From: an uncultured Desulfobacteraceae bacterium
GTDB taxonomy: Bacteria; Desulfobacterota; Desulfobacteria; Desulfobacterales; Desulfatirhabdiaceae
Assembly (NCBI GenBank): GCA_903953895.1
Contig: CAJBLH010000250.1
Span: 1-64,000, forward strand
Direction: 5' to 3'
DNA length: 64,000 nt
A program made the translations under genes and the position numbers. Below the pieces are notes generated by a model, which worked only from the letters and a program-made list of their open reading frames with translations, made no database searches and was not told the DNA's origin. This document shows positions 17,928-41,469 of this stretch, one piece after another. Position 1 is the first letter of the stretch; each line of letters opens with the position of its first letter.

Positions 17928-19085
17928 TTAAGAGCGGACTTCTTCCTTAACACCAACCGCCATCTTGTATAATATGGTCAGCACCAAAAACCCGGCGCCA
18001 TAAACACCCAACGTAATCATAATCTCTGGAACCGTAGGTGCATACTCCGTAACGTGGTGAAGCGGAGACGGCACAAACCCTCCCGAGATCATTCCCAGCC
18101 CTTTGTCGATCCAGGTACCGGCAAAGACCGTCAGACAGGCAACCACCAGAACGTTTTCATTTTTTCGGGTGACGGGATTGACCAGGAGAATGATACCGAC
18201 AACCATCAGGGCCATGGACGTCCACATCCAGGGAACCAGCGAGCTTTTTCCCTGAAGACCGAAGAACAAATATTTCAAATGATCCATATGTTCGGGAATT
18301 TGACTATAGAACACGACAAACACTTCACAGAGAAAAAAGAAGACATTCAAACAGATGGCATAAGCGACTATTTTAGCCAGAGACTGAATCTGCTCTTTGC
18401 CGGGATCGAAATTGGTGACTTTTCGAATAATCATGCACAGCAAAATCAAAAGAGCCGGGCCCGCCGCAAATGCGGAGGCAAGAAATCGGGGCGCCAGAAT
18501 GGCCGTCAGCCAGAAGCCTCTTCCCGGAAGACCGCAGTACAGATAAGCTGTGACCGTATGAATACCCACTGCCCATGGAATAGATATATATATCAAGGGC
18601 TTGAGCCACATCGGGTAATGCACGTTGTTTCTTTCGGCTTCAAGAACATTCCAGCCGATCACGATATTCAGAAAAAGATATCCGTTCAAGACGATCATGT
18701 CCCAGAACAGGACGGAGTTGGGTGTTGGATAAAGCAGAACATTAAACATGCGCATCGGCTGCCCGAGATCAACGAGAATAAAGAGCAAGCACATGGTAAT
18801 GGCGGCAATGGCCAAGAATTCACCCAGGATGGTGACCTTGGCGAATGCCTTGTAATCATGTAGATAATACGGAAGTACCACCATCACGCCTCCGGCTGCA
18901 ACCCCGACCAGAAAGGTGAACTGGGCAATGTAAAATCCCCAGGATACATCCCGACTCATTCCGGTAATTCCCAAACCGAACCCAAGCTGCGTAAGGTAAG
19001 CTCCGAATCCGATGCCGACAAGAACCAGAAGGGCTGTTATCCAGCCGTAATATTTTTTATTTCCTTTTAAGGCTAATTCAAGCAT
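17928..19085 (-). CDS. dsrP: DsrP, NrfD-like quinone-reactive membrane subunit
   Basis: A 385-residue polytopic protein with about ten membrane segments, in the NrfD/PsrC family. Typical blocks are ITGMSRDVSWGFYIAQFTFL, the GGVMVVLPYYLHDY segment, LVDLGQPMRM and FWDMIVLNGYLFLN. In the DsrMKJOP complex it exchanges electrons with the menaquinone pool and pairs with the periplasmic ferredoxin DsrO. A GTG at 19091 is possible, but ATG 19085 with GAGGT four bases ahead is better. It is last in its operon, with a terminator 27 bp downstream. The 85-bp gap to dsrO carries repeats. Confidence 0.95.
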   Translation of the reverse strand: MLELALKGNKKYYGWITALLVLVGIGFGAYLTQLGFGLGITGMSRDVSWGFYIAQFTFLVGVAAGGVMVVLPYYLHDYKAFAKVTILGEFLAIAAITMCLLFILVDLGQPMRMFNVLLYPTPNSVLFWDMIVLNGYLFLNIVIGWNVLEAERNNVHYPMWLKPLIYISIPWAVGIHTVTAYLYCGLPGRGFWLTAILAPRFLASAFAAGPALLILLCMIIRKVTNFDPGKEQIQSLAKIVAYAICLNVFFFLCEVFVVFYSQIPEHMDHLKYLFFGLQGKSSLVPWMWTSMALMVVGIILLVNPVTRKNENVLVVACLTVFAGTWIDKGLGMISGGFVPSPLHHVTEYAPTVPEIMITLGVYGAGFLVLTILYKMAVGVKEEVRS

Positions 19086-19097
19086 AACCACCTCATA

Positions 19098-19170
19098 TGA
19101 ATTATGAATTGCGAATTATGAATTATGATGATTCCTTCTTTCATACGTGATACTTCATAATTCATAATTT
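19098..19170. repeat. AATTATGA-type repeats and hairpin between dsrO and dsrP
   Basis: The gap holds GAATTATGAATT units in direct repeat (about 19099-19128). Also, 19113-19128 can pair with 19155-19170 (15 of 16 bases complementary, 26-nt loop). The stem is almost entirely A-U pairs. It sits inside the operon, so it may be an mRNA processing site, a weak pause, or a dispersed genomic repeat. Confidence 0.6.
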
Positions 19171-19176
19171 GATTCA

Positions 19177-19965
19177 TTACACGATGTAGTAAACTGTGGG
19201 CTCTGTTCCCAGGCTCTGTTTCCGGCGAATGGTAAAATTGGATTTCAACAGTGCTCTGACCGCGGATTGGGGATCATAAAGGTCCCCGAATGTCAGGATG
19301 CCGTTGGACACCTCGACACAGGCAGGCATTTTTCCGATGGCGATCCGTTCAGCACAGTAATTGCATTTTTCAACGACCCCTTTCATCCGGGTGGGATATT
19401 CCTTGTTCGTCTCTTTGATAAAGGGGCGGGGATCACGGAAATTGAAACTTCTGGCGCCATAAGGGCAGGCGGCCATACAGAACCGGCACCCGATGCAGCG
19501 GTGAAAATCCATCATGACGATTCCATCGAGTTCCCGCTTGAACGTCGCCTTGGTAGGACACGCCCGCACACACGGCGGGTTTTCACAATGATTGCACAGC
19601 ACCGGAAACGGAACATGCTCCGCGTGTTCGCTCAGGAATTTGTTGATTTCCGTCGGGAATGCATAATGATATTCTTCTTCCCATATCCATTTGATTTCGT
19701 GATTTTTAGTCTCCATCTTGGGGACGTTGTGAATTTTGTGACAGGCGCTGATCATGGGCTCCAGGTCAGATGCTTTGTTAATCTTGCGCGTATCAACGAC
19801 CATGGCCCACTGCTTGGCCTTGAGCGCGCCATCCCCTTTTTTGAGTTCAACCGAGCCTGCACCCTCTGCCTGCCCGGCAGCCAGAACATCCAGTACCGGT
19901 TTGGCGCCGATGCCCAGAACAGCGACCCCGGTCATTGTCAAGAAGCGTCTTCTGCTGCTTTCCAT
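19177..19965 (-). CDS. dsrO: DsrO, Tat-exported periplasmic ferredoxin
   Basis: A 262-residue iron-sulfur protein with a twin-arginine leader (MESSRRRFLTMTGVAVLG). Mature-part ligands read CNHCENPPCVRACP, then CIGCRFCMAACPYGARSF, then CNYCAERI with CVEVSNG. This is the DmsB/NrfC pattern carrying up to four [4Fe-4S] clusters. In the periplasm it passes electrons between the cytochrome DsrJ and the membrane protein DsrP. The ATG at 19965 overlaps the dsrJ TGA by one base and has GGAG upstream; an in-frame GTG at 19968 is less likely. Confidence 0.95.
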   Translation of the reverse strand: MESSRRRFLTMTGVAVLGIGAKPVLDVLAAGQAEGAGSVELKKGDGALKAKQWAMVVDTRKINKASDLEPMISACHKIHNVPKMETKNHEIKWIWEEEYHYAFPTEINKFLSEHAEHVPFPVLCNHCENPPCVRACPTKATFKRELDGIVMMDFHRCIGCRFCMAACPYGARSFNFRDPRPFIKETNKEYPTRMKGVVEKCNYCAERIAIGKMPACVEVSNGILTFGDLYDPQSAVRALLKSNFTIRRKQSLGTEPTVYYIV

Positions 19966-20381
19966 CACTTTATCTCCTTCGGATTGTCAATATGGCAGTC
20001 AAAGCAGTAAGGTCTCACCGAAGCGTAGTCATGGCATTTGTCACAGAAGTCAGCCTTGTTAGAGTGACAATCCAGGCAAGTATTGGAAAGACTCATGGTA
20101 AATGCCTTACCACTGGGATTGACATAGGTATTGTCGGAATTTCTGACTACCGAATGCCGCCAGATATCCAGGAGCTGCATGTGTTCAGCCCTCATGTACG
20201 CTGTCGGCATCACGCATTCTTTTGCCGCCTTTGCTTTTTCGGTCAGCTTGATCTCAGGACCGGGCGCCGCCTTTCCCGAATTGTACCAGAAAGGGAATGT
20301 AAACAAGGCGATAAAAACGACCAATCCCGCAATGATATATTTCTTGTCTTTTATAAGAAATATTTTCTTGTCATTCATCAT
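19965..20381 (-). CDS. dsrJ: DsrJ, triheme cytochrome c
   Basis: A 138-residue protein with an N-terminal uncleaved-type membrane anchor (YIIAGLVVFIALFTFPFW). The periplasmic part has exactly three CxxCH sites: CLDCH, CDKCH and CFDCH near the C terminus. DsrJ homologues bind one haem with unusual His/Cys ligation; the cysteine at CVMPTAYMRAEH is a plausible candidate. It works with DsrO and DsrP on the outer face of the complex. Its start overlaps the end of dsrK (ATGA). Confidence 0.95.
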   Translation of the reverse strand: MMNDKKIFLIKDKKYIIAGLVVFIALFTFPFWYNSGKAAPGPEIKLTEKAKAAKECVMPTAYMRAEHMQLLDIWRHSVVRNSDNTYVNPSGKAFTMSLSNTCLDCHSNKADFCDKCHDYASVRPYCFDCHIDNPKEIK

Positions 20382-22000
20382 TCATCCTCCATTCCTGGCA
20401 GCGGCTCTCCGCGCAGGTTCGTGGTTCTTTCACCTTCTCCGGGAAGGATCAGCGCATTGGCCACCATTTCTGTCACCCCCGTAACGCCGACCCCTGGCAC
20501 CCAGTAATCCATGAGCGTCGGGAGCGCAGCCCGGTCTATGGCGCAGATCGTTGCCAGCATGTTAACGCCGTATTTCTCATGGACATATTTTACGGCATTG
20601 GCCCTGGGAAGACCACCGGTCAGCCGGAGTTCCATATTTTCACCGGCATTCAGCCCAGAGCCGCTTCCGCAGCAGAAAGTCTGCTCCCGAATGGTGTTGG
20701 GCGGCATGTCGTAGAAATTATTGGCTACATTTTGAATGACATACCTGGGCTCATCGAACATCCCCATGCCCCGTGCGGGATTACAGGAATCGTGATAGGT
20801 CAGGATGAGGTTGTCGTTGCGGCTCGGATCCAGATTCAACTTGCCATGTTTAATCAGGTCTGCCGTAAATTCCGAAAGATGAACCATTTTGGTGGATTTA
20901 GCGTTCTCGAATTTAGTTCCCGTGATGGGGGATACGGGTTCTTCCAGAAAATCCGCCGGCCCGTTCATGGTATCCATATACTGGTTGATGACGCGCCACA
21001 TATGGCCGCACTCCCCACCAAGAATCCATTTGACCCCAAGGCGCTTGGCCTCGGCATACATCTTGGAATTGAGCCGCTTCATCATTTCATGGGAGGTGAA
21101 GGAGCCGAAATTCCCACCTTCGGAAGCATAGGTACTCCAGGTGACGTCCAGACCATATTCTTCTTTAAGATAATGAAAAAGAAGCAGATAGCCCATGCAG
21201 GTATAAGTGCCCGGATCGGCGAATACATCTCCGGACGGGGTAATAAAAAGAATGTCCGCACCTTTTTTATTGAAGTTGGGCTCCACCCGAACGCCGGTAA
21301 TCTCCTCGAGATCATCCATAAAAAATTCGAGCATGTCCTTGAATGCATGGGGCTGAATTCCCAGATGGTTGCCAGTGCGATAGCAATTGGCAACCGGTGT
21401 TGCAATCCAGTCGATGTTCAAGCCGATCAGGTTGAAGAGTTCTCTGGCCATCATCGTGATTTCAGCCGTATCGATGCCATAGGGGCAGAAAATCGAACAC
21501 CGCCGGCATTCCGTACACTGGAAAAAATAATACCACAATTCCTTCAATACTTCCATGGTCAGTGGCCTGGCGCCGGCCAGTCTGCCCAGAATTTTGCCCG
21601 CTGCGGTAAAGTCGTTGCGATAAACGGAACGAAGCAGCTCGGCCCGAAGGACTGGCATGTTCTTGGGATCACCGGTGCCGATGAAAAAGTGACACTTGTC
21701 GGCACAGGCTCCGCAGCGAACACAGATATCCATAAACAGCTTGAATGAACGGAACCGCTCCAGCCTCACCTTGAACCCTTCATGCAGGATTTCCTGCCAG
21801 TTTTCCGGAAGTTTCCAGTCCTCATCCAACGGGTTCCATTGATGCGGGAAAGGAAGGTGGGTGTATTCGACACTTTTAGGATTTGCCGCATAACAGTACA
21901 TTCCCTTTCGAATAGTCACCGGAGTGTCCATCCAGTCCATCTGGGGCGGCTTTCGATCTATATCGGACAACAATTGATCTGGTTTTGGAAAGTCTGACAT
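20378..22000 (-). CDS. dsrK: DsrK, HdrD-like iron-sulfur subunit
   Basis: A 540-residue cytoplasm-facing subunit related to heterodisulfide reductase HdrD. Two [4Fe-4S] motifs (CVRCGACADKCHF and CTECRRCSIFCPYGID) are followed by CCG-type elements: GGECGHMW, TYHDSCNPARG and TFCCGSGSGLNAGEN. These form the noncubane catalytic cluster expected to act on the DsrC trisulfide or disulfide. It receives electrons through cytochrome b DsrM. A clear AAAAGGAG precedes the start, four bases after dsrM ends. Confidence 0.96.
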   Translation of the reverse strand: MSDFPKPDQLLSDIDRKPPQMDWMDTPVTIRKGMYCYAANPKSVEYTHLPFPHQWNPLDEDWKLPENWQEILHEGFKVRLERFRSFKLFMDICVRCGACADKCHFFIGTGDPKNMPVLRAELLRSVYRNDFTAAGKILGRLAGARPLTMEVLKELWYYFFQCTECRRCSIFCPYGIDTAEITMMARELFNLIGLNIDWIATPVANCYRTGNHLGIQPHAFKDMLEFFMDDLEEITGVRVEPNFNKKGADILFITPSGDVFADPGTYTCMGYLLLFHYLKEEYGLDVTWSTYASEGGNFGSFTSHEMMKRLNSKMYAEAKRLGVKWILGGECGHMWRVINQYMDTMNGPADFLEEPVSPITGTKFENAKSTKMVHLSEFTADLIKHGKLNLDPSRNDNLILTYHDSCNPARGMGMFDEPRYVIQNVANNFYDMPPNTIREQTFCCGSGSGLNAGENMELRLTGGLPRANAVKYVHEKYGVNMLATICAIDRAALPTLMDYWVPGVGVTGVTEMVANALILPGEGERTTNLRGEPLPGMEDE

Positions 22001-22004
22001 TTAC

Positions 22005-23027
22005 TTACTCCTTTTCCACTGGCAGTCCAGCCTCTATCATTTTTTCCCTGAATTCTTCTTCATACTCTTCGTAGGTATGAACTTCAACAGGGTAGTTCCA
22101 AGGGTTGACATGTCTGACTGCACGGCTGTTACCCGGAAGATTTCGAGTGGGGCTCAGGAAAACACCTCCCATGTGCATCAGCTTGCTGAAGGGAAAATAG
22201 GCCAACAGGATACATACGAAAAACAGATGGACGTAAAATACAACACCGATGCCCTGGGGAATGGTCGGATGAAAGGAAACCAGACCCAGCGTCAGCTCTT
22301 TTGCCGCCCGGATATTCACTTTTGAAAAATATCGCATCAGAATGCCGGTAAATGCGATTCCGAAAATGAGAAAGAGGGGAAAAAAATCGGCCGGAAGAGA
22401 AATGTATTTGACATGGGGAATCACAATCCGCCGGATAAATAGAAAGGCTACCGCAGCCAGAAGCACCAGCCCCGACATGTAGAGACCGGGCACCCCGACT
22501 CTAATGGTATCGGTCAGGATTTCAAACCTGAAGAAGCTGTCTACGGTTTCAACCAGTTTGATCAGGGCAGGAACCGGTTCCGTAAACAGGCGCATATGCC
22601 GGACAATTACCGTCAGAAACGCATAATGAAACGCCAGCGCCGCCACCCAGAGCCAGATCTCCAGCTGATAGGCGATTTTTCCTTCCTGGATGAAATTACG
22701 GGTATTGCGAAAAAGCGACCGGAAACAGCATACTTCCAGGATCATTCGCACCACCACCGCGCCCGGTGTAAAGGGGTTGTCGAACTTGTTGGGCTTGATC
22801 CAGGGCAGCGATTTTTGCTGGCCGCAGGTTGAAGGAATGCGAAACGGCACTGCGGATCGCGCCCATCCCATCACCCGGTAGACGACGCCGGCAACAAAAG
22901 CGGCCACCGCAACATAGGGTATGATGATCCCGAACAGAAGTTCGAGCCCTGCAGCCTCCACACCCAGATAGGCCAGCAGAAACAAAGCAATCACTGCCAA
23001 CAGGGAATACATATACTTTACATTCAT
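22005..23027 (-). CDS. dsrM: DsrM, membrane cytochrome b subunit
   Basis: A 340-residue NarI/HdrE-like membrane protein with two N-terminal helices and a five-helix cytochrome b core (LEIWLWVAALAFHYAFLTVI, GIGVVFYVHLFFVCILLAYF, FSKLMHMGG). Spaced histidines on these helices are plausible haem b ligands. It oxidises menaquinol and passes electrons to DsrK. It follows the RsbRD-N gene by 130 bp and precedes dsrK by four. Confidence 0.95.
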   Translation of the reverse strand: MNVKYMYSLLAVIALFLLAYLGVEAAGLELLFGIIIPYVAVAAFVAGVVYRVMGWARSAVPFRIPSTCGQQKSLPWIKPNKFDNPFTPGAVVVRMILEVCCFRSLFRNTRNFIQEGKIAYQLEIWLWVAALAFHYAFLTVIVRHMRLFTEPVPALIKLVETVDSFFRFEILTDTIRVGVPGLYMSGLVLLAAVAFLFIRRIVIPHVKYISLPADFFPLFLIFGIAFTGILMRYFSKVNIRAAKELTLGLVSFHPTIPQGIGVVFYVHLFFVCILLAYFPFSKLMHMGGVFLSPTRNLPGNSRAVRHVNPWNYPVEVHTYEEYEEEFREKMIEAGLPVEKE

Positions 23028-23157: not shown

Positions 23158-23739
23158 TCATACATTACAGATTCCGTTTTTTGGCGGCGTCAATAGCCGC
23201 AGTCCCGGAACGTCCTCATCCGGAACATCTTTTACCAGCCCCGCCCGCTGAAAAGCGCTAAATGTCGTATTACGCATTTCATTGGCCTGAAGCTGATATA
23301 TCTTTTCGCGGCATTTCACATAAATGTCGAAAGCCATGAGGCAAAGGTCATCGATTCTGGATTCAAAATTCATGAAGGCTGTGATAACATCCGGATCATG
23401 AAACTCCTTGACGAGAGTTTCCCGAATGGCCTGCTTGAGGAACAAAATAAACGAAGTGGCATGAGAAGGGGTAAAATCCTGAAGCGCGCGAATGCGGATA
23501 ATGGGGTCGAGGAAAGAATTGACGGCTTCCCTGTCCATTCCGGTGATAAGCACATCGAACAATGCCTCAAGACCTTTGAGCGTGGTATTTCCCACGGGAT
23601 TGGCAAAAGGATCTTTCTGCTGCTTCAGAAAACTGGCCGTATCGACTGGATATGTTCTCACAACTTCATCAAACCAGCGTTTGATCAGCACGTTCTTGTG
23701 TTGGGACAACAATTTATCCAGTTTCATGAAAAAAGACAT
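23158..23739 (-). CDS. RsbRD N-terminal domain protein, first gene of dsr operon
   Basis: A 193-residue mostly helical protein with the RsbRD_N-type globin-like sensor fold: LDKLLSQHKNVLIKRWFDEV, LFDVLITGMDREAVNSFLDP, IIRIRALQDFTPSHATSFIL. In stressosome proteins this module is a sensory domain; here no STAS output follows. From memory, such genes often stand directly upstream of dsrM in Desulfobacterota, suggesting a dsr-linked sensory or regulatory role. The start is uncertain: ATGs at 23748, 23739 and 23727 are all in frame near AGGAG. It is the first gene after the minus-strand promoter at 23843-23871. Confidence 0.75.
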   Translation of the reverse strand: MSFFMKLDKLLSQHKNVLIKRWFDEVVRTYPVDTASFLKQQKDPFANPVGNTTLKGLEALFDVLITGMDREAVNSFLDPIIRIRALQDFTPSHATSFILFLKQAIRETLVKEFHDPDVITAFMNFESRIDDLCLMAFDIYVKCREKIYQLQANEMRNTTFSAFQRAGLVKDVPDEDVPGLRLLTPPKNGICNV

Positions 23740-23838
23740 ACTCCTCATTTGAATTAACGATACCGCTTAAACATTTCAAACGAAAAAGCGAAAAAAGAGT
23801 AAATCGCTCATCTGATCCGTCAGCGTCACATTTAAGCA

Positions 23839-23881
23839 TCTGCCTATAGTCAACTTGGGATTTTCTGTCAACAAGAAATAA
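23839..23881 (-). promoter_or_regulatory. 43-bp inverted-repeat arm with dsr-operon promoter
   Basis: The left arm of a perfect 43-bp inverted repeat. On the minus strand it contains TTGACA (23871-23866), a 17-nt spacer and TATAGG (23848-23843), directed at the RsbRD-N/dsr operon. The expected leader is about 100 nt. The -35 is a perfect consensus. Confidence 0.82.
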
Positions 23882-23900
23882 TAAATTACGATAAAGTCTG

Positions 23901-23934
23901 GAACCGTGTTTCATACATCGAGAAAATACGGTTC
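23901..23934. promoter_or_regulatory. Small palindrome between the divergent promoters
   Basis: GAACCGT (23901-23907) and ACGGTTC (23928-23934) form a perfect 7-bp inverted repeat with a 20-bp gap, just inside the left promoter. Its position would suit a regulator of either promoter. No known consensus is recognised. Confidence 0.35.
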
Positions 23935-24004
23935 AAAGCTAAAAAATGTTCAATGACTGAATATTCCCCAATTTATATCCATTTTAACAAATTTTCGAAA
24001 GCCG

Positions 24005-24047
24005 TTATTTCTTGTTGACAGAAAATCCCAAGTTGACTATAGGCAGA
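24005..24047 (+). promoter_or_regulatory. 43-bp inverted-repeat arm with hmc-operon promoter
   Basis: The right arm, an exact reverse complement of 23839-23881, 123 bp away. On the plus strand TTGACA (24015-24020), a 17-nt spacer and TATAGG (24038-24043) point at hmcA. Transcription would start near 24050, leaving a leader of about 275 nt before the ATG at 24327. No ORF with a good ribosome-binding site was noticed in that leader. Confidence 0.82.
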
Positions 24048-24326
24048 AAATCGAATCCGGACTCGTATTTAAATTCCTGTCCTCGTTTTTTGAAGCTTTC
24101 TGTCTTCAACAGATGTTGTTTCGTAAGCTCTCATGGCTTATCTTATGTCACTTTCACGAATGACAATTCTATTTCAAACAACAAAAAATATTTTTGTGCA
24201 TTTTGTTGACCAAAAATATCTTTTCAGTGATTGATTATTTTAAACTGTCAAACTCAAAATTTTAATCATTAATCGATTATCGGGTTTTATCATAGTTTCA
24301 TTCGAACTTCACTGAGGAAGCGCATT

Positions 24327-25907
24327 ATGGGGAAAGTCGGATCATTCATGACCAGGATTGTCCTGCCGGTTGTTCTTGCCGTTGTTTCCACTTTAGGGAC
24401 TGGCGCTTATGGCCAGGAAGGCCAGATGCAGCCGCCCGATACCAGAAGAGCGGATGTGATGATCATCGACGTACTCAGAAGCCACGGCAGGCTCGAGCGT
24501 CCCGGCGTTGAATTTCCTCATGATCTTCATACTCAGGCTCTCCAAAAACAGAAAAAAGACTGCACAATCTGCCATCTCTTGACGGATAAAAATCGCCTTT
24601 CTCTTAAATTTCAACGAATAGCGGACGGCGCCAAAACCGAAATTGCCGATACCTATCATGCCAGGTGTATCGAATGTCATAAAGCAATCGCATCAACCAA
24701 CGAAAAATCCGGTCCGGTCACATGCGGAGAATGCCACAGGGAAAAACCCGAGTACGACGCGATTCGGATTCCCATACAGTTCGATAAATCCCTGCACGCC
24801 CGGCATTCTAAAGCCGTAGAAAATAAGTGTGAAACGTGTCACCACGAGTATGACGCCCAGACAAAAAAACTGTTTTACGCCAAAGAGAAAGAAGGTTCCT
24901 GCCGGTATTGCCATCAGGATACGACACAGGATAACCGGATATCCAACCGGGAGGCGTCACACATCGCTTGTCTCGATTGCCACCGAAAAATTGTTGCGGC
25001 CGGGAAAAAGGCCGGCCCGATAAACTGCAGTGGCTGCCATGATCCGCTGCAGCAGGCAAAAATTGAAAAAATATCCGATATTCCTCGGGTGCTGCGCAAA
25101 CAGCCGGATACGGTTCTGATGAAAATCAATAAAGATGTTATTCAGCCTGAAGCCCGAATGGATTTTGTGCCTTTCGATCACGAGGCCCACGAAGGCTACT
25201 CGGACTCCTGCCGCGTATGCCACCATCAGTCAATAAGCGCCTGCAATACCTGTCATACCCAGATCGGAACCAAAGAAGGAAAGTGGGTAACCCTGGATAT
25301 GGCCATGCACCAAAGAAATGCCGGTGAAAGCTGCATGGGATGCCATAATCTGGCAAAGACGCAACCTAAATGCGCCGGATGTCATACCCGCATGAATCCG
25401 AACCGAAAAGACGAACAAACATGCCGGACATGCCACATCAAAACTGATCCACAGTTAAAATCCGTGCTGTTGCCTGCTGATCAAGAACCGATTGCAGCCA
25501 AATCGCTGCTGGACTTGCGAAATCCTGTCAAGGCACCTTTTACGGATACCCTGATAGTTGACATACCAGAGAAAATATCGATCAAAAGTCTTTCGAATCA
25601 ATATGAGGCGGTTGATTTCCCACACAGAAAAATTGTTCAGAGCCTGTTTAACCAGATCGGCGAAAACAAACTGGCAGAATATTTTCATACCAGTCAAACG
25701 ACGTTATGTCGGGGATGCCATCACAACAGTCCGGAGTCGGTCAAGCCGCCCAAGTGTCAGAGCTGCCACAACAAACCTTTCAATGAAGCCAAGGATGCTC
25801 CGGGTCTGCTGGGCGCTTATCATCAGCAGTGCATGGGATGTCATCAGGCCATGCACATTGAAAAACCCATGGGTTGTACCGAATGTCACAAGGAGAAAGT
25901 TCCATAA
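24327..25907 (+). CDS. hmcA: HmcA, 16-haem high-molecular-mass cytochrome c
   Basis: A 526-residue exported cytochrome: signal peptide (MTRIVLPVVLAVVSTLG, cleavage near AYGQ), then exactly sixteen CxxCH haem sites, from CTICH at about 79 to CTECH near the C terminus. The D. vulgaris HmcA is of similar length and also binds sixteen haems. The sites fall in class III cytochrome c-like modules, with CETCHHEYD, CRVCHHQS and CRGCHHNS as the characteristic CxxCHH types. It accepts electrons from periplasmic type I cytochrome c3 and hydrogenases and hands them to the membrane Hmc subunits. GAGGAAG precedes the start. It is the first gene of the hmc operon. Confidence 0.96.
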   Translation: MGKVGSFMTRIVLPVVLAVVSTLGTGAYGQEGQMQPPDTRRADVMIIDVLRSHGRLERPGVEFPHDLHTQALQKQKKDCTICHLLTDKNRLSLKFQRIADGAKTEIADTYHARCIECHKAIASTNEKSGPVTCGECHREKPEYDAIRIPIQFDKSLHARHSKAVENKCETCHHEYDAQTKKLFYAKEKEGSCRYCHQDTTQDNRISNREASHIACLDCHRKIVAAGKKAGPINCSGCHDPLQQAKIEKISDIPRVLRKQPDTVLMKINKDVIQPEARMDFVPFDHEAHEGYSDSCRVCHHQSISACNTCHTQIGTKEGKWVTLDMAMHQRNAGESCMGCHNLAKTQPKCAGCHTRMNPNRKDEQTCRTCHIKTDPQLKSVLLPADQEPIAAKSLLDLRNPVKAPFTDTLIVDIPEKISIKSLSNQYEAVDFPHRKIVQSLFNQIGENKLAEYFHTSQTTLCRGCHHNSPESVKPPKCQSCHNKPFNEAKDAPGLLGAYHQQCMGCHQAMHIEKPMGCTECHKEKVP

Positions 25908-26021
25908 TTTTCAATATGGGAGCAACCCCCATCTGAAGAGATTCGGCTGATTTTCATCAGAAAAAAAACCGACGAAATTACATTCGGTCATAATATTCCA
26001 ATTGTGTGTAGAGGTAACAAC

Positions 26022-27077
26022 ATGTCGTTGACGCGAAGACGATTTTTGGGATGGATGGGCGCTGCCGGGGCCGGCACGCTGGTGGGACGACAGGCTGAAG
26101 CTGCCGCCAATGTTCATTTTACAGGGTACCCGGATAGTTTTGCAGTGTTGCATGATATAACCCTCTGCGTCGGCTGTCGATCCTGTGAAGCAGCTTGCAA
26201 TACCGTCAACGAGCTGCCGCCGCCCAATCGTCCATTCAAGGATTTGACCGTGCTCGACCAGCACCGGCGTACCACATCCAAGACATATACTGTAGTAAAC
26301 CGCTTTCAACCAGCCTCCCAGGCGCCCAAATCCATATTTGTCAAAAAACAATGCAATCATTGCCTTGAACCTGCCTGTGCGTCTGCCTGTTTTGTCCGGG
26401 CTTTCAAAAAATCCCCGGAAGGGGCCGTCACTTACGACCCGACGGTGTGTGTGGGGTGTAGATACTGCATGGTTGCCTGCCCCTTTGAAATTCCCGCATA
26501 CGAATACGAGAAGGCTCTTGATCCCAAAGTCATGAAGTGTACGATGTGCCATCCGCGGGTAAAAAATGGTCAGCTCCCCGGCTGTGTGCAGGCCTGCCCA
26601 AAGGAAGCCCTGACATTTGGAAAACGTAAAGATATTCTGAACATCGCCAGAGAGCGGATTCACAAATACCCGCAACGCTATATCGATCATATTTACGGCG
26701 AATCCGAAATGGGCGGAACAAGCTGGCTGTATCTTTCCTCGGTTCCCTTCAGCCAGATAGGCATGCGGGAAGATTTGGGTACAACGCCGGCGCCTGAGCT
26801 AACATCCGGGGCGCTTGGAGCTGTTCCCATTGTCGTGGGACTGTGGCCGGTTCTTTTGACCGGGATTTATGCCATTACCCAGCGCAAAGAAAAAGTTTCC
26901 GCCGAAGAACAACGACTGGCAGTTTCTCAGGCCGTCGAACATGCCAGGCAGAGCGCCGAGCTGGACATGGTCCGCGCCATGGAAAAAGCGGAGAAAGACA
27001 AAGAAACCGCCATCAAACAAGCTGTAAAAAAAGCGATGGATGAAGCCGTTAAAGCTCAACAGGAGGTGAAAGCCTGA
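26022..27077 (+). CDS. hmcB: HmcB, Tat-exported ferredoxin with C-terminal anchor
   Basis: A 351-residue protein with a twin-arginine leader ([18 protein letters not shown]). Four cysteine clusters follow: [41 protein letters not shown] and [21 protein letters not shown]. After about residue 265 there is one hydrophobic segment ([18 protein letters not shown]) and an Ala/Glu/Lys-rich coiled tail. The protein should sit outside the membrane, anchored by this helix, linking HmcA to HmcC. The ATG at 26022, with GAGGT upstream, is preferred to one at 26004. Confidence 0.94.
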
Positions 27078-28246
27078 TGTCTGATGAAAAATCCCTTTCT
27101 GTCAACAAGGCACTGACACCATTCAACATGGTTGCCGGAATCATCCTTCTGATCGGCATGGTCATTACGATTCTTCGATTCACCGGCGGACTGGCGGCGG
27201 TAAGCAACCTGACCGACGACAATCCCTGGGGGATTTGGATAGGATTTGATCTGCTCTGCGGTGTGGCTCTGGCTGCCGGAGGCTATGTCACTTCTGCGGC
27301 GGTTTATATTTTTGGACTGAAGCGTTACCATTCCGCAGTACGGCCCGCTATTCTCACCGGATTCCTGGGTTATGCACTTGTAGTGTTCGCCCTCCACTAC
27401 GATGTCGGTCGTCCGTGGCGCCTGCCGTATCCTTTTATCGTTCAGCAGGGAACCACCTCCTTGCTTTTTGAGGTCGGCGCCTGCGTGGCATTGTATCTCA
27501 CCGTTTTGTTTATTGAATTCACGCCGGCAGTCATGGAGTGGCTGGGTTTGAAGCGGGCGCGGACGATTGTGGTGCGGCTGACCATGCTGCTGACCATATT
27601 CGGCGTGGTACTCTCCACCCTTCACCAGTCATCTCTGGGTGCGCTGTATCTGATTGCACCATCCAAACTGCACCCGCTCTGGTATTCAACCTATCTGCCT
27701 GTTTATTTTTTTGTGTCGAGCATCATCGCCGGGCTTTCCATGGTGCTTTTTGAAAGCACCCTTTCGCACCATTATTTTTCACATAAAATGGATAAGACCC
27801 ACCTTGCGGAAGCTGATAATGTGACGCTGGGATTCGGCAAAGCGGCATCTTTGGTTCTGGCGGGCTATTTTACGATCAAAATCATCGGTATTGCAATTGC
27901 CGACAACTGGCATTATCTGACCACGGGATACGGCGCCTGGTTTCTGCTGGAGCTGCTGGGGTTTGTGGCCCTGCCCTGCCTGATGTATGCGGTCGGTGTC
28001 CGGGACAGAAATGTCAAACTCATTCGATGGACTGCCGGCTGGACGATTCTGGGCATTGTGCTGAACCGGCTCAATATTTCCCTGATCGCCTTTAACTGGC
28101 AACTGCCATCCAGCCAGCGATACGTTCCACACTGGATGGAAATCATGGTTTCGGTTTTTATCGTCACGATCGGCATTCTGATCTTTCGGTTCATTGTCAC
28201 CCGAATGCCCATTATGTATGAACATCCGGATTATCACTCACACTGA
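27077..28246 (+). CDS. hmcC: HmcC, NrfD-like membrane subunit
   Basis: A 389-residue polytopic protein with about ten membrane helices, of the NrfD family (NPWGIWIGFDLLCGVALAAG, VALYLTVLFIEFTPAVMEWL, LMYAVGVRDRN). It is the quinone-site-type integral subunit of Hmc, matched with HmcB. Its ATG overlaps the hmcB stop (TGATG), and a strong AGGAGG lies inside the end of hmcB. Confidence 0.94.
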   Translation: MSDEKSLSVNKALTPFNMVAGIILLIGMVITILRFTGGLAAVSNLTDDNPWGIWIGFDLLCGVALAAGGYVTSAAVYIFGLKRYHSAVRPAILTGFLGYALVVFALHYDVGRPWRLPYPFIVQQGTTSLLFEVGACVALYLTVLFIEFTPAVMEWLGLKRARTIVVRLTMLLTIFGVVLSTLHQSSLGALYLIAPSKLHPLWYSTYLPVYFFVSSIIAGLSMVLFESTLSHHYFSHKMDKTHLAEADNVTLGFGKAASLVLAGYFTIKIIGIAIADNWHYLTTGYGAWFLLELLGFVALPCLMYAVGVRDRNVKLIRWTAGWTILGIVLNRLNISLIAFNWQLPSSQRYVPHWMEIMVSVFIVTIGILIFRFIVTRMPIMYEHPDYHSH

Positions 28247-28304
28247 TCTCCATTTGCCGGCAAGAATTTAACAACCATTGTTCAAATAAGCTAAGGACGT
28301 TGCG

Positions 28305-28457
28305 ATGCCTTGCGAATTCTTCACACTTCAGGATTTTATGACATATACGAAAGGTATCACCTATATTTTGATGCTGGTTTCCCTTTGCGCCATTACCGGA
28401 TTCTGGCTCTTTTTAACCGAACGCGACACGGATGAACCGCATCATCATAGCAAATAA
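28305..28457 (+). CDS. hmcD: HmcD, small single-helix membrane subunit
   Basis: A 50-residue protein with one central hydrophobic helix (ITYILMLVSLCAITGFWLFL) and a short charged, His-rich tail (DEPHHHSK). AAGGA lies nine bases before the ATG. Size, topology and place between hmcC and hmcE match D. vulgaris HmcD. It is easily missed because of its length. Confidence 0.85.
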   Translation: MPCEFFTLQDFMTYTKGITYILMLVSLCAITGFWLFLTERDTDEPHHHSK

Positions 28458-28717
28458 GTACGCGGTCAAGCCATTGACAAAATGCCGCCCACCTAAATGA
28501 AAATACACAAGTTTTTCATTCGTGCTTATTCGTGTTCATTTGTGGTTCAAAAAGTCTTTGGTTCATCGTGGATTAGCGTGACAATAACACAAGTCCGCTG
28601 GTTCCCAAGCTCCAGCTTCGTGTCATTTCCCATGATGATTCGAATGCATGAAAATGACATGCATCTGCTTTAAACTGATTACTGATAGCTGTATTTTCAC
28701 GGTAAAGGAGTGTCCAT
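28458..28717 (+). other. Unusually long gap inside the hmc operon
   Basis: Some 260 bp between hmcD and hmcE with no ORF preceded by a ribosome-binding site. It holds imperfect TTCGTG/TTCATTTGTG-type repeats (about 28516-28550) and an ATGCATGAAAATGACATGCAT palindromic patch near 28650. No terminator with a T run is seen. Confidence 0.4.
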
Positions 28718-29395
28718 ATGTATGATTTCGTAACCGGACCATTGGCGTGGCTGGCATTTTCCGTTTTCCTTGTCGGCGTGATTGCCCGGGTGGTTCTCTA
28801 CATTCGGGGCCTGGACTGGAAACTGGACCGTGTAACATATACGGTCAATGTATCGTATGGCGTCAAAGGTGCGATCCGATCCATTTTGCAGTGGATTTTT
28901 CCTTTTGGTACGCACAGCTGGCGCAGCTACCCTTTTATGACGGTACTGGTTTTCGCCTTTCATATCGGCATCCTCTTTACCCCGATTTTTCTGATTGCGC
29001 ATAATCTCATCATGTGGGAAAGATGGGGCATACGCCTGTGGACCCTTCCAGAACCGGCAGCCGATTTTCTCACCCTGACCATGATGACCTGTGCGGTGTT
29101 TCTGGTGTTGCGACGGATTGCGCTCTCCGAAGTTCGTATTCTAACCACGGGCTACGACTATCTGGTGCTAACGATTGCGGTTGCGCCGTTTTTCACAGGC
29201 TATATGGCCCATCTACAAGTGGCGGACTATCGGTTCTGGTTGATTCTGCACATTTTATCCGGGGAAGTCATGCTGGTGGCCATTCCCTTTACCAAGCTTT
29301 CTCATTTTGTCGGCTTTTTTCTGTCTCGGGCGCAGATCGGCATGGATTATGGCATCAAACGCGGTGGCATGAAAAACAAGGGGCTGGCCTGGTAG
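28718..29395 (+). CDS. hmcE: HmcE, NarI-like cytochrome b subunit
   Basis: A 225-residue membrane protein with five or six helices. Histidines in VLVFAFHIGILFTPIFLIAH and FWLILHILSGEVMLVAIPFT are likely haem b ligands, and TKLSHFVGFF closes the core. It corresponds to DsrM without the two extra N-terminal helices, and would pass electrons between the membrane and HmcF. AAAGGAG is correctly placed upstream. Confidence 0.93.
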   Translation: MYDFVTGPLAWLAFSVFLVGVIARVVLYIRGLDWKLDRVTYTVNVSYGVKGAIRSILQWIFPFGTHSWRSYPFMTVLVFAFHIGILFTPIFLIAHNLIMWERWGIRLWTLPEPAADFLTLTMMTCAVFLVLRRIALSEVRILTTGYDYLVLTIAVAPFFTGYMAHLQVADYRFWLILHILSGEVMLVAIPFTKLSHFVGFFLSRAQIGMDYGIKRGGMKNKGLAW

Positions 29396-29518
29396 CTTTT
29401 GCAAATTGTCATCAATACATTATTTTCATGTGAGAAATCATTCCCATTCATGGGAGCGATCAACCCGATCATGAATGTTATTTTAATTCAATACTGATAT
29501 TGCGGGTAGGGATTAATT

Positions 29519-30901
29519 ATGCCTGAAGGAATATTTTGTAACAGGACTCCGATCAATACCGTAGAAGCGCTTCATACGCTGCTGGCGGATAAGAGTGGAA
29601 AAACCTATTATGCAGAAATGAACGCCCTGGAAGTGGACCGGGCTGCATTGAAGGCAACGCTTGACAAAACCTGCAAATCGCGCATTCGCACCTGGCTGGA
29701 AATCTGTGCCCACTGCGGCATGTGCGCGGACAGTTGTTTTTTTTATCTGGCCAACAACAAAGACCCCAAACAGGTGCCTTCCTATAAGATTCAATCCACC
29801 CTCGGGCAGATTGTCAAGAAAAACGGCGATGTGGACAATGCGTTCATGCAGATGGTCATGGACACCGCCTGGGGGAAATGCACGTGCTGCAACCGATGTG
29901 GTATGTACTGTCCGTTTGGAATCGATATGGGGGTGATGTTCGGTTATCTGAGAGGATTGTGCTATTCTCAAGGATTTGTCCCCTGGGAGCTGAAAATCGG
30001 CGCGGGCATGCATCGCATTTACCGGGCTCAGATGGATGTGACATCAGAGGACTGGGTGGACACCTGCCAGTGGATGGCGGAAGAAAATGAAGAAGACTGG
30101 CCGGGACTTGAAATTCCCGTAGATAAAGAAGATGCGGATATCATCTACACGGTCAATGCCAGAGAACCCAAACATTACCCGGAAGATCTAGCCGAAGCCG
30201 CCATTCTCTTTCATATTGCCGGAGAAAATTGGACCGTTCCCAGTGTCGGATGGGAAGAAACCAGTCTGGCCATGTTCGCCGGAGACTGGGAAGCCTGCAA
30301 GCTTCAGGTTCAAGCCGTTTATGACGCCATGGAACGGTTGAAGCCCAAACGGATGGTCGTTACCGAATGCGGCCACGCTTACCGGGCAACAGTCATCGAA
30401 GGCCCCTACTGGGCCGGTCTGAAATCCGGAAAAACGCCAGTGCCCAGTTTTCACTATGTTGAATGGGTGGCGGAAGCCCTTCGCACCGGCAAACTCAAGA
30501 TCGATCCGTCCAAGCGAATCAAGGAACCGGTAACGTATCAGGACTCCTGCAACTACATCCGGAACGCCGGTCTGAAAGAATGCGCCCGAGAAATCATGAG
30601 TTATATCGCCGAAGATTTTCGGGAAATGTCACCGAACAAGGAGCACAACTTCTGCTGCGGCGGCGGCGGCGGCATGAATGGCCTCGGAAGATATCGGGAA
30701 CAGCGCAATATCGGGCTTAAAGTCAAACGCGATCAGATTCTGGCAACCGGCGCAAAACTCGTCGTTTCTCCCTGCCACAACTGCTGGGATGCCATCCGGG
30801 ATCTGGAAGAAGTCTACCACGTCGGTATCCGGTGGTCGTTTTTAAAGCCCCTGCTGCTCAAAATGGTGATCGTTCCCGACCATTTGAAATCCGAGGAGTA
30901 A
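29519..30901 (+). CDS. hmcF: HmcF, HdrD-like CCG-domain iron-sulfur subunit
   Basis: A 460-residue cytoplasmic subunit with two [4Fe-4S] motifs ([13 protein letters not shown] at about 63 and [16 protein letters not shown] at about 120). CCG-type sites follow: [34 protein letters not shown] and [10 protein letters not shown]. This resembles HdrD and DsrK, pointing to thiol/disulfide or ferredoxin chemistry on the cytoplasmic face. The physiological partner of HmcF is not established. Its stop overlaps the start of the next gene. Confidence 0.94.
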
Positions 30902-31437
30902 TGAATACCGTAACACTCCGCGACAGTGGCCTGCTTCTTGCCGACGGAAAGGCTGTTGACAGCAGGCCTCTCATGTTTCTGAGTGCTCAGGTCCAACTGG
31001 CGGCGGAGTGTACGCTGCGTAGTTATTTTCGGATGATCGCGCATTATCCGATATTCTCCGAGTTCAATGTTTTTTTTTCTACCTGTATGGAAACCTACCG
31101 GTCCTGCCCGGTCGGCGGCTGTCATGACCCGTCGCTGGATTTTCTGATACTGACAAAAACGATTGAAATGATAGGATTCCCCGGTAACCCGCGACTCGAG
31201 ATATACCATTCGCTGTATGGCGTTCAGGATAATGATCTGTCTGAAATTCGATTATTTACCTTGGAACTGCTTCTCGATGTTCCCTTGAAGCTGGGAAAAC
31301 TCAAACATGTCGTTTTCGGCGACAAAATAGACAAGTTTGAATTTGATACGGTGTTTACCCTGTTTGAATTCATTGATGCCATTGTGTGGGAACTCAGCTT
31401 TCACGGGTTACTGCTCGCCTGTGATATACGGAGGTAA
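30901..31437 (+). CDS. Conserved-looking unknown coupled to hmcF
   Basis: A 178-residue protein with no domain I recognise. It overlaps the hmcF stop (TAATG) and has GAGGAG ahead, so it is translated with the Hmc complex. There is no signal peptide and no clear membrane helix. Features are a CPVGGCHDP element at about 63 (CX4CH spacing, though a cytoplasmic location makes haem unlikely) and a Leu/Phe-rich C-terminal half (LFTLELLLDVPLKLG, FDTVFTLFEFIDAI). It takes the place that response regulator genes occupy in D. vulgaris. It could be an assembly or regulatory partner of HmcF; this is inference only. Confidence 0.7.
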   Translation: MNTVTLRDSGLLLADGKAVDSRPLMFLSAQVQLAAECTLRSYFRMIAHYPIFSEFNVFFSTCMETYRSCPVGGCHDPSLDFLILTKTIEMIGFPGNPRLEIYHSLYGVQDNDLSEIRLFTLELLLDVPLKLGKLKHVVFGDKIDKFEFDTVFTLFEFIDAIVWELSFHGLLLACDIRR

Positions 31438-31439
31438 CG

Positions 31440-32360
31440 ATGTTTGATAAAATTCTGTTTGCCACCACGGGTACGCCTATCTGTGATAATGCCGCGCATG
31501 TGGCTTTCGACATTGCCAAAAAATACAATTCCAACCTCTTGATGTTTCATGTGCTTGGCATGCCGTCACGGGGTTTCAGCACGGTTGTAAAGGACATCCG
31601 CACCGGTGAAGTCGAGCAATATGACACCGATTATATTTCCTGGGTTAAAGAAGAGCTGAAAAACACCTATGAAAAATATCTGAAAGACAGCAGCAGTTGT
31701 GATATTCAGGCTATCGCCGGTGTTCCCGCCACGGAAATCCTGAGAAAAGCCCGTCAACACAATGCTGATCTGATCGTAATGGGCGCCCATTCCCGTCAGG
31801 AAGAAACCGGCGCCGCCCGTTACCGGGGGGCTGTGGGAACCAATATGCAGCATGTAGCCCGCGGCGCCCGCTGCCCGGTGTTGATTGTCAGCAGACCCTG
31901 TACCACCTGCCTCTGGTATTTTTCCAATATCGTTTTCGGCACGGATTTCAGCAAAGCATCCTTTTCCGCATTTCTGTTTGCCAGTAAACTGGCCAAGGAA
32001 ATCGGCAGTAAACTCTATATTTTTCATGCACTGGATATGGGTGCGGTTCTGGCAGGAAAAGTGCTGTCTCAGGAAGACGTCGAAGCCCGCATTCAGGAAG
32101 CCCGTAAAAAAATCGAGAAAATTTATCTGCCGCATCTTCGTGACTACGATAATTTCCAGATCGATATCTGGGAAGGCATCCCGTATGTGGAAATCTTGAA
32201 ATATTCCCGGGCAAAGAATGCGGATCTGATCGTCATGGCTCACCACACCAAAGAAGTGGAACCCGACCAGGCGATTTTGGGCGGCACCGTGGAACAAGTG
32301 GTCCTGCGGGCCTCCTGTCCGGTTGCAAGTGTCAACCATCCGGATAAAGTCTCGGGCTGA
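31440..32360 (+). CDS. Tandem universal stress protein
   Basis: A 306-residue protein made of two USP domains: about 1-150 (MFDKILFATTGTPICDNAAH through LIVMGAHSRQEETGAARYRG) and about 155-303 (FSNIVFGTDFSKASFSAFLF through LIVMAHHTKEVEPDQAILGG). Both keep ATP-loop-like sequences. CGGAGG precedes the start, two bases after the previous stop, so it belongs to the hmc operon. USPs linked to respiratory genes may report energy charge; that is inference. Confidence 0.92.
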   Translation: MFDKILFATTGTPICDNAAHVAFDIAKKYNSNLLMFHVLGMPSRGFSTVVKDIRTGEVEQYDTDYISWVKEELKNTYEKYLKDSSSCDIQAIAGVPATEILRKARQHNADLIVMGAHSRQEETGAARYRGAVGTNMQHVARGARCPVLIVSRPCTTCLWYFSNIVFGTDFSKASFSAFLFASKLAKEIGSKLYIFHALDMGAVLAGKVLSQEDVEARIQEARKKIEKIYLPHLRDYDNFQIDIWEGIPYVEILKYSRAKNADLIVMAHHTKEVEPDQAILGGTVEQVVLRASCPVASVNHPDKVSG

Positions 32361-32371
32361 GCATCCGGTTT

Positions 32372-32803
32372 ATGGCTATCAAACAAATTCTGATCGTCGA
32401 TGATGAACTGGATATGCGGATTTTTTTATCCACAGTCCTGGAAACCAGCGGATATCGCCCGATTACCTGTCAGAATGGCCGAGATGGCATCACCAAAGCC
32501 CGATCCATAAAGCCGGATATCATTCTTCTGGATGTAATGATGCCCGGAGAGGGAGGCGTCAATATGTATCGGGCTTTAAAAACAGATCCCGAGCTGCGAT
32601 CCATTCCGGTCATCATGATCACCGCAGTGGGCCATGACAGTTTCAGCCATTATCTGAACATGCTGAATGCCGGTCTGCCTCATCCGATGGCGTCCCCTGC
32701 AAATTATTTGCAAAAACCTATCGATCCAAATACCCTGCTGGCAGCCCTGCAGCATGCTTTTTCCACTGTCCGATCGGATGGAGACAGCTCGCGTGAGGCT
32801 TGA
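32372..32803 (+). CDS. Single-domain response regulator
   Basis: A 143-residue receiver with no output domain. Acidic pocket IVDDEL, phosphoacceptor Asp in IILLDVMMPGEGG (about 51), and the conserved Lys in YLQKPIDP (about 113). A short insertion (LNMLNAGLPHPMASPAN) precedes the Lys. It probably works as a phosphate shuttle or by protein contact. Its stop overlaps the next start (TGATG). Confidence 0.92.
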   Translation: MAIKQILIVDDELDMRIFLSTVLETSGYRPITCQNGRDGITKARSIKPDIILLDVMMPGEGGVNMYRALKTDPELRSIPVIMITAVGHDSFSHYLNMLNAGLPHPMASPANYLQKPIDPNTLLAALQHAFSTVRSDGDSSREA

Positions 32804-34716
32804 TGGAAAAAAAGCTCCTGCTTGTTGATGATGAAGAAGGTATTCGAACGGTACTGGGTATTTCATTGATGGACATGGGGTATGCGGTACTGACCGCGGA
32901 AAACGGTCTGGATGCACTGACAATATTCAGGGCTGAAAAACCTTCGATTGTTCTGACCGATATCAAAATGCCGGCAATGGACGGCATCCAACTGCTTCAA
33001 ACTATCAAATCTGAAAATCCAGACACTGAAGTCATCATGATCACCGGCCATGGCGACATGGACCTGGCAATCAAAAGCCTGAAACTCAACGCCACAGATT
33101 TTGTCACCAAACCCATTCACGACGACATTCTTGAAATCGCACTCAATCGGGCCACTGAACGAATTTTCATGCGCGAGCAACTCAGACGCCATACCGAAAA
33201 TCTCGAAAAACTGGTGGAGGAGAAATCCGCCCGCCTGGTTCAACTGGAGAGACTGACCGCCATCGATCAGGCGGTTGAAGGTATGTCGCTGGCCAGACGA
33301 CTGATTGCCGACGACATCGGTCAGAACTTCGGCAATTTCAATGAAATGCCCTGTTTCGTATCGATTCATAATCGCGACTTGAAAATCGTTGCCGCCAACC
33401 ATCTCTATCGTACACGGCTGTCAAGCACAATCGGCGATTCCAGTTGGTCCATCTACACCGATGCCGATACCACACCCGACACTTGTCCGGTCGGGCTGAC
33501 TTTTTCTTCCGGCACAGGACAGCGTTTCAATAAGCAGATTCAATTCGCAGACGGCACGCAATCGCCGGTCATGGTGCATACCGCACCGATCCGAAACAGC
33601 ACCGGAACCATTGATCTCGTAATCGAGATTTCAGCCGATATTTCGGAAATCAAGCGGCTCCAGGATGAGTTGAATACCACTCAGCGGAAATATCAACAGC
33701 TCTTCGATGAATCACCATGCTATATTACGGTTCAGGATCGGCAATTTCAGATGATTGCCGCCAATCGCCGATTCAAAGATGATTTCGGTGATAACATCGC
33801 CCAGTGCTTCCGGGTGTATCGCCAGCGCACCGAGCCTTGTCTCAACTGTCCGGTTGCCAAAACCTTCGAGGATGGACAGCCCCACCAGAGCGAGATGGTC
33901 GTGACATCGAAAATCGGGGAACAGATGCATCTGCTGATCGGTACTGCGCCTTTATTCACTGCAGATGGCCACATCAACCAGGTCATGGAATTATCCACCA
34001 ACATTACCCAAATCCGTCAACTTCAGGAAAATCTATCGGCTCTGGGGCTGATGATGAGTTCCATGTCCCACGCGGTCAAAGGTATGCTGACCGCTCTGGA
34101 CGGCGGTATCTATCGAATACAGTCCGGTCTGAAAAAACAGGATTCAACGTTGATACAAGATGGACTGGATGATGTTCGAATTACGGCGGATCGCATCCGC
34201 CATGCCGTCTTGGATATCCTGTACTATGCCAAGGAGCGCGATATTCGGCCGGAACCAACGGAAGTCCAAAACATGGTGGATGATGTGATTCAGATCATCG
34301 AGCCTAAACTGGCCGGCAGATCCATTCAGTGGGCCTGCCGCGTGGAACCTTCTTTGGGCTGCTTCGTCGTGGATCGGGGGGCCATGAGAACAGCACTGAT
34401 CAATATTCTTGAAAATGCGGTCGAAGCATGTCTCGAAAATGTGCAAAGACCCTCTCATACCATTGACTTTCATGTTAAAAAAGTCAAAAATCATATCTCT
34501 TTTGAAATTCGAGATACAGGTATCGGCATGAGTTCAGAAATTCAAGATAAAGTTTTCACCCTCTTTTTTTCGTCCAAAGGCCAGAGAGGCACTGGCCTCG
34601 GCCTGTTCATCGCCAAAAAAGTGATCGATCAGCATCAAGGAACTATCCGATTTCAATCTGAAAAAGGCAAGGGCGCCACATTCTGGATCGATATCCCTAT
34701 CAATACAAAACCTTGA
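32803..34716 (+). CDS. REC-PAS-PAS histidine kinase
   Basis: A 637-residue cytoplasmic hybrid. The receiver is at 1-120 (LLLVDDEEG, Asp53 in IVLTDIKMP, Lys103 in TKPI). A coiled coil follows, then two PAS-like domains (about 170-285 and 300-410), an atypical dimerisation helix with MMSSMSHAVKGMLTALDGG (about 424), and an ATPase domain ending RGTGLGLFIAKKVIDQH. Both PAS domains carry a CPV signature (DTCPVGLTFSSG; CLNCPVAKTFEDG), which suggests a thiol, metal or redox site. No membrane helix is seen. TGATG coupling to the receiver gene makes that receiver a likely partner. Confidence 0.88.
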   Translation: MEKKLLLVDDEEGIRTVLGISLMDMGYAVLTAENGLDALTIFRAEKPSIVLTDIKMPAMDGIQLLQTIKSENPDTEVIMITGHGDMDLAIKSLKLNATDFVTKPIHDDILEIALNRATERIFMREQLRRHTENLEKLVEEKSARLVQLERLTAIDQAVEGMSLARRLIADDIGQNFGNFNEMPCFVSIHNRDLKIVAANHLYRTRLSSTIGDSSWSIYTDADTTPDTCPVGLTFSSGTGQRFNKQIQFADGTQSPVMVHTAPIRNSTGTIDLVIEISADISEIKRLQDELNTTQRKYQQLFDESPCYITVQDRQFQMIAANRRFKDDFGDNIAQCFRVYRQRTEPCLNCPVAKTFEDGQPHQSEMVVTSKIGEQMHLLIGTAPLFTADGHINQVMELSTNITQIRQLQENLSALGLMMSSMSHAVKGMLTALDGGIYRIQSGLKKQDSTLIQDGLDDVRITADRIRHAVLDILYYAKERDIRPEPTEVQNMVDDVIQIIEPKLAGRSIQWACRVEPSLGCFVVDRGAMRTALINILENAVEACLENVQRPSHTIDFHVKKVKNHISFEIRDTGIGMSSEIQDKVFTLFFSSKGQRGTGLGLFIAKKVIDQHQGTIRFQSEKGKGATFWIDIPINTKP

Positions 34717-34735
34717 CAGACGATAAGGATAAAAA

Positions 34736-38753: not shown

Positions 38754-38857
38754 TGGGTTCCTTGTTTCGGTTTTTTTATGAGAAGGTATCCAGCGGCAAT
38801 CAAGATGCAGTCCATCAAAATTGCCAAATTTTCAAATAGGTGTGGCATCCTTATCAT
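38750..38857 (-). CDS. Possible small membrane protein upstream of the MaoC-like gene
   Basis: A 35-residue frame (MIRMPHLFENLAILMDCILI, then AAGYLLIKKPKQGTQ) with one hydrophobic helix and a basic tail. Its TGA overlaps the ATG of the MaoC gene, a typical coupling arrangement. The ribosome-binding site is poor and the start unclear, so it may be chance. Confidence 0.25.
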   Translation of the reverse strand: MIRMPHLFENLAILMDCILIAAGYLLIKKPKQGTQ

Positions 38858-41453: not shown

Positions 41454-41469
41454 AGGCTGTGTCCTTTTG

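Follow-up and report, generated by a model that had tools for sequence, protein, structure and literature searches.

Several routes by which a gene can come under a promoter from elsewhere are already known. Promoter propagation, with its putative mobile promoters, was reportedly described by Matus-Garcia et al. in 2012 and by van Passel et al. in 2014. In the long-term E. coli experiment, citT is said to have been activated through promoter capture by a rearrangement. The hmc operon of Desulfovibrio vulgaris, which is of the same type as the one analysed here, is regulated by Rrf1/Rrf2, and we know of no described promoter link between hmc and dsr in that organism. According to PMC8049555, where mobile promoters are cited, promoter propagation is a known process in which a short promoter sequence is copied within the genome to a site before an unrelated gene, so that non-homologous genes come to share nearly the same upstream sequence. 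Upstream-region switching, or horizontal regulatory transfer, is also a known process, in which the upstream region of an operon is unrelated to that of its orthologues and a change in expression is expected (PMC5890482). How Hmc and DsrMKJOP function in sulfate respiration is, according to PMC4215793, incompletely understood.

Here, we analysed a 64-kb stretch of DNA (the window) from an uncultured, sulfate-reducing Desulfobacteraceae bacterium, in which the dsr and hmc operons stand head to head with a copy of the same 43-bp promoter block before each. The case looks like natural promoter capture. We consider it quite probable, from the sequence comparisons described below, that a lineage-specific promoter duplication and capture has placed hmc under the dsr promoter. 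As is said of citT, a rearrangement would have put a resident promoter before a gene without it; unlike in the citT case, the donor operon has not lost its own promoter, and what was added is a minimal 43-bp copy in inverted orientation. The locus resembles promoter propagation, as outlined in PMC8049555, in the 43/43 upstream identity on the non-homologous RsbRD_N and HmcA genes. It differs in having one extra copy, 123 bp off, inverted and tied to a rearrangement that moved the recipient operon; rather than several dispersed copies there are two, with no sign of a multi-copy family. The hmc upstream region is non-homologous to that of orthologous operons, as in upstream-region switching (PMC5890482), whereas the source here is a neighbouring operon of the same genome and the comparison is made across species, not strains. 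The kind of event is thus already known; in the literature searched (on hmc and dsr promoters, RsbRD with dsrM, and promoter propagation) we found no described instance of the dsr–hmc arrangement, and in that on hmc and dsr promoters no promoter link between the two.

Genes were identified with Pfam and NCBIfam models, and the Dsr and Hmc proteins exceeded the curated NCBIfam cut-offs. The features between and around the two operons are as follows.

17928–19091, minus strand: dsrP (NCBIfam model)
19177–19968, minus strand: dsrO (NCBIfam model)
19965–20381, minus strand: dsrJ (NCBIfam model)
20378–22000, minus strand: dsrK (NCBIfam model)
22005–23027, minus strand: dsrM (NCBIfam model)
17928–23027, minus strand: span of dsrMKJOP
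23158–23748, minus strand: RsbRD_N-domain protein (PF14361, domain model), first gene of the dsr operon
23749–23838, minus strand: dsr leader, about 90 nt from the promoter block to the RsbRD_N start, with similar spacing in the closest relatives
23839–23881, minus strand: left arm, the ancestral dsr promoter, orthologous to the single copy before RsbRD_N/dsrM in relatives
23871–23866, 23857–23851 and 23848–23843, minus strand: left-arm −35 TTGACA, CAAGTTG and −10 TATAGG
23882–24004, no strand assigned: spacer between the arms, 123 bp, with no detectable homologue in relatives
24005–24047, plus strand: right arm, a derived copy of the dsr promoter in inverted orientation before hmcA, absent from the hmc loci of 18 relatives
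24015–24020, 24029–24035 and 24038–24043, plus strand: right-arm −35 TTGACA, CAAGTTG and −10 TATAGG
24048–24326, plus strand: hmc leader, about 275 nt
24327–25907, plus strand: hmcA (model match)
26004–27077, plus strand: hmcB (model match)
27077–28246, plus strand: hmcC (model match)
28718–29395, plus strand: hmcE (model match)
29519–30901, plus strand: hmcF (model match)
24327–30901, plus strand: span of the hmc genes
30832–38214, plus strand: genes after hmcF (universal stress protein, response regulator, histidine kinases)

The preliminary description of this DNA had reported a perfect 43-bp inverted repeat with outward-facing promoter hexamers, set between RsbRD_N-dsrMKJOP and hmc. Each element was reproduced: the arms are exact reverse complements (43/43) separated by 123 bp, TTGACA, 17 nt and TATAGG were placed in outward orientation on both strands, and the flanking genes are those claimed (RsbRD_N and DsrM, K, J, O and P on the minus strand; HmcA, B, C, E and F on the plus strand). 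The pair is the sole perfect inverted repeat of at least 18 bp in the window. When the whole genome was searched (5.47 Mb, 315 contigs) with up to 3 mismatches allowed, the 43-mer had two copies, and there was no third copy of it or of its degenerate core, which excludes the objection that it might be a common dispersed repeat. TTGACA-N17-TATAGG matched twice genome-wide on both strands, at the two arms, against one match for the reversed-pattern control. Its cruciform potential is strong, with a DNA fold of −57.6 kcal/mol versus −15.3 for shuffles (z −14.6). An Rfam search returned no credible family, the hmc leader included; an RNA element was rejected, the only hits being to sub-threshold microRNA and sRNA models that accept any long hairpin.

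Both arms have sigma-70-type hexamers and spacing (TTGACA 6/6, 17 bp, TATAGG 4/6), with a −10 that deviates from the E. coli consensus. A simple sigma-70 scanner reported neither arm, because its −10 must end in T and these read TATAGG. No dsr-type promoter was found in the 123-bp spacer; the promoters sit in the arms and point outwards. No intrinsic terminator was detected in the hmc leader, between the right arm and hmcA.

A 601-bp query was compared with 28 genomes (this one and 27 relatives). Matches were confined to the arms and occurred in four other genomes, at one place each, and a pattern search added a fifth (G003), again with one copy per genome. These single copies directly precede RsbRD_N, the first gene of the dsr operon, and TTGACA-N9-AAnTTG-NN-TATAgg is present once, at the same position before RsbRD_N/dsrM, in every same-genus genome having the locus. 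When a genome collection covering 84,980 species was scanned, six such places emerged. Five are apparently those in the genomes of the genus, and one lies before RsbRD_N-dsrM in an additional MAG that bears the annotation uncultured Desulfobacteraceae bacterium. When the dsr orthologues were aligned on TTGACA, 35–39 of 43 positions matched inside the 43-mer, with the flanks near background. Conservation drops to near background at the edges of the 43-mer; the unit that is repeated thus coincides with the conserved part of dsr promoters.

Across the order, TTGACA-N7..11-AAnTTG-N1..3-TATA was present at 15/20 dsr loci versus 1/19 hmc loci (Fisher p = 1e-5, in a test that counts related loci as independent), the single hmc locus being that of this genome. 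The less specific TTGACA-N16..18-T[AT]TA is kept in 18/20 dsr loci. As an unbiased check, we ran nearly the same AAnTTG-containing pattern against 59 genomes from the order, and 14 of the 29 loci inspected in relatives lay directly before RsbRD_N-dsrM; the recognisable downstream frames at the other 15 were those of an acetyl-CoA synthetase, a Fur-like regulator, a formate dehydrogenase-like protein and others. This genome has three matches to the pattern, two of which are the arms and the third of which overlaps an apparent tRNA-Ser gene (recognised from its translated peptide). So low a count led us to reject a general genome-wide promoter consensus. With two mismatches allowed, there were 31 matches versus 16 for the control, many of which look like chance, and no clear regulon emerged.

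The block is common at dsr loci and found at hmc only here, and therefore the hmc arm is the derived copy, with the left arm as the ancestral dsr promoter and the hmc arm specific to this genome, a 315-contig assembly that is also the only carrier of the rearrangement described below. At the positions that set this genome apart from G001, G006 and the additional MAG, the two arms have the same bases, which dates the copying, or else the most recent homogenisation of the arms, to after the split from those species. The earlier suggestion of a duplication behind the identical promoter blocks is supported by this comparison with related genomes, which also gives it a direction, from dsr to hmc.

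The native promoter of hmc has a different appearance. In G001, G002 and G006, a common motif, TTTTGACATG[T/A]CAAA[A/T]G...TAA, precedes hmcA; in the hmc upstream region of this genome, nothing matched it with fewer than 5 mismatches in 17. Among the relatives, hmc promoters differ strongly in sequence and position. The spacer and hmc leader had no significant similarity to the hmc or dsr upstream regions of relatives beyond the start-codon region (17/18 local-alignment tests were null, and one gave p = 0.02, as chance predicts). G001, G006 and G002 (L035, L036 and L037) also have a palindrome before hmcA, TTTTGACATGTCAAAAG, which overlaps a TTGACA-like −35 and is imperfect in L036. It may be an operator of the native hmc promoter, and it was not found in the window. 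HmcA of G003 (L069, G003:C267 1336–3102) aligns in two overlapping pieces, which suggests an internal repeat or insertion.

None of the relatives examined has dsr adjacent to hmc: where both were found, the operons lie on different contigs (which, in fragmented assemblies, cannot by itself rule out adjacency) or, in the single-contig G017, megabases apart. Neither a dsr promoter nor an RsbRD_N gene is present upstream of hmc in those relatives whose hmc upstream region was read. Instead, the divergent neighbour of dsr is acnA (aconitase) in G003, G004 and G005, an arrangement shared by three genomes farther off in the order. In G001, a block consisting of w38277, w38948, an RtcB-like gene, w41470, w42618, an ABC-F gene and acnA lies upstream of dsr. 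This block is inverted in the window, where hmc and its linked signalling genes (24327–38214) separate it from dsr.

38277–47890, no strand assigned: w38277...ABC-F...acnA block, adjoining dsr in G001 and inverted here, with the hmc block between
47891–48425, no strand assigned: upstream side of acnA, on the other side of the breakpoint, which keeps the acnA promoter-proximal GACAACAGATTT element

In G003–G005, the GACAACAGATTT element lies about 25–40 bp from the dsr −35. The acnA side retains it here, so one breakpoint fell within or close to the short stretch separating the divergent dsr and acnA promoters. To judge from the gene order, an inversion-type rearrangement brought hmc beside dsr in this lineage. 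At least one earlier rearrangement step is unseen, because hmc is not beside the 38277–47890 block in G001; in the relatives compared, none of the genes located past 48426 turned up upstream of hmc. In G007, the sole other genus of the family that was compared, acnA is divergent to hmc rather than to dsr (L068, G007:C13 6462–11923), so acnA, dsr and hmc have swapped head-to-head partners more than once.

Other features of this region deserve mention. The GACAACAGATTT element is conserved in the acnA–dsr gaps of L012, L013 and L061 and at 47881–47994 in the window, and may belong to the acnA promoter. The genes that follow hmcF, up to 34716, also trail hmc in G004 and G006, and those at 31440–38214 have relatives beside hmc in G007; the universal stress protein, response regulator and histidine kinases at 31440–38214 are a candidate hmc-linked signalling module. 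The RtcB-family protein (40014–41453, 479 aa) has an intein-containing RtcB family as its best model, of which it covers only the last part, below the cut-off.

We propose that an inversion-type local rearrangement, with a breakpoint between the divergent dsr and aconitase promoters, set hmc head to head with dsr, and that, during or after this event, the 43-bp dsr block was duplicated in front of hmcA in the opposite orientation, probably via replication-fork strand switching at the junction. Strand switching fits the origin of the copy better than a staggered-break inversion, in which the breakpoint sequence becomes duplicated at either end of the inverted segment and which was rejected as a simple origin: the copy that it predicts at the acnA end (47891–48425) was not found. 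Homologous recombination between pre-existing copies was rejected by reasoning, since direct repeats in the reconstructed order would delete rather than invert. The copy would supplant the native hmc promoter as the evident promoter, and RNA polymerase would start at identical sequences, near 23836 on the minus strand toward dsr and near 24050 on the plus strand toward hmc. Both operons thus probably fire from identical promoters, and a factor acting inside the 43-bp block would affect both, coupling the expression of two transmembrane electron-transfer complexes. Transcription from each arm and co-regulation of dsr and hmc are what we infer from the promoter sequences. The leaders differ in length (about 90 versus about 275 nt), so post-transcriptional control may still differ between the operons. 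The length of the hmc leader counts against the proposal, as it leaves room for another transcription start. So do the non-consensus −10 that the scanner missed, the unseen step or intermediate that the rearrangement requires, and the presence of the arrangement in a single genome, assembled in 315 contigs.

If shared regulation simply means having identical promoters, it is likely; as a selected trait, it is plausible. A stronger form of the same explanation, which is compatible with it, treats AAnTTG between the −35 and −10 as the site of a dsr-specific regulator, the copy being fixed for bringing hmc into the dsr regulon. The retention of AAnTTG in the spacer of those 15/20 dsr loci, and the rarity in this genome of its combination with TTGACA and TATA (the 3 matches), speak for such a site, whereas the two-mismatch count is only about twice the control and includes many chance-like matches, and the non-dsr loci with the pattern precede assorted genes, as ordinary promoters would. 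We therefore regard this form as possible and tentative, and claim no specific regulator of AAnTTG, because the non-dsr loci are assorted and the two-mismatch scan yielded no regulon. The fuller version appears rather doubtful: here, the dsr promoter would be a conserved operon-specific type with AAnTTG as its regulatory element, the fixed inverted copy would make hmc a member of the dsr regulon, and the arms would be kept identical by selection or correction. Identity of the arms can equally come from recent copying or from arm-to-arm correction of close inverted repeats.

Such identity without selection also enters the reading in which the second copy is a transcriptionally irrelevant by-product of the rearrangement, its identity due to recency or correction, while an unrecognised promoter in the 275-nt leader drives hmc. 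The long leader and the variable sequence and position of hmc promoters among relatives agree with this reading, as do the flanks of the arms: the 15 bp upstream of the hmc arm match the dsr upstream region of relatives at 10/15 positions, versus 6/15 for the dsr arm (shuffle p ~0.003, in one of several comparisons made), which fits flank exchange. This likeness is only a hint of exchange or inversion between the arms, of which the cruciform potential could be the cause. Against a by-product, the copy stops almost exactly at the limit of dsr promoter conservation, has every conserved promoter base and is followed by no terminator before hmcA. On balance, we consider a by-product unlikely.

The perfect arms, the cruciform potential (z −14.6) and the hint of a flank swap would also suit an invertible element, the arms serving as recombination sites that flip the 123-bp spacer. 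However, flipping the spacer would leave everything downstream unchanged, since the promoters face outwards from the arms rather than lying inside the invertible segment, as phase variation by an invertible promoter would have it. Moreover, no recombinase was noticed among the neighbours identified (electron-transfer, signalling and housekeeping genes), and the dsr arm is an orthologous promoter, not a recombination site, all of which makes this reading very improbable. We give equally little credence to a misjoin of dsr and hmc during assembly. The assembly is fragmented, the arrangement is unique to this genome and a repeat sits at the junction, but a misjoin at a shared repeat would not yield an inverted repeat with a unique spacer, nor would a random one place beyond hmc exactly those genes that adjoin dsr in G001, in inverted order. 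Finally, a dispersed repeat or MITE-like small mobile element between the operons, suggested by inverted repeats flanking a short spacer, is refuted by the copy number (two, with no further genomic copies) and by the orthology of the left arm to the dsr promoter of relatives.

Promoter duplication and capture thus remains our preferred reading. The locus still reveals its donor, recipient, breakpoints and ancestral state, which would make it a clean example of promoter capture. A by-product of the analysis is a dsr promoter conserved across the order, usable for predicting dsr expression in uncultured sulfate reducers. That hmc could take over this promoter would mean that Hmc and DsrMKJOP are compatible with matched expression, and perhaps profit from it. 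If hmc has truly joined the dsr regulon, the locus would be a case of natural rewiring, through which two transmembrane electron-transfer complexes have become coupled.
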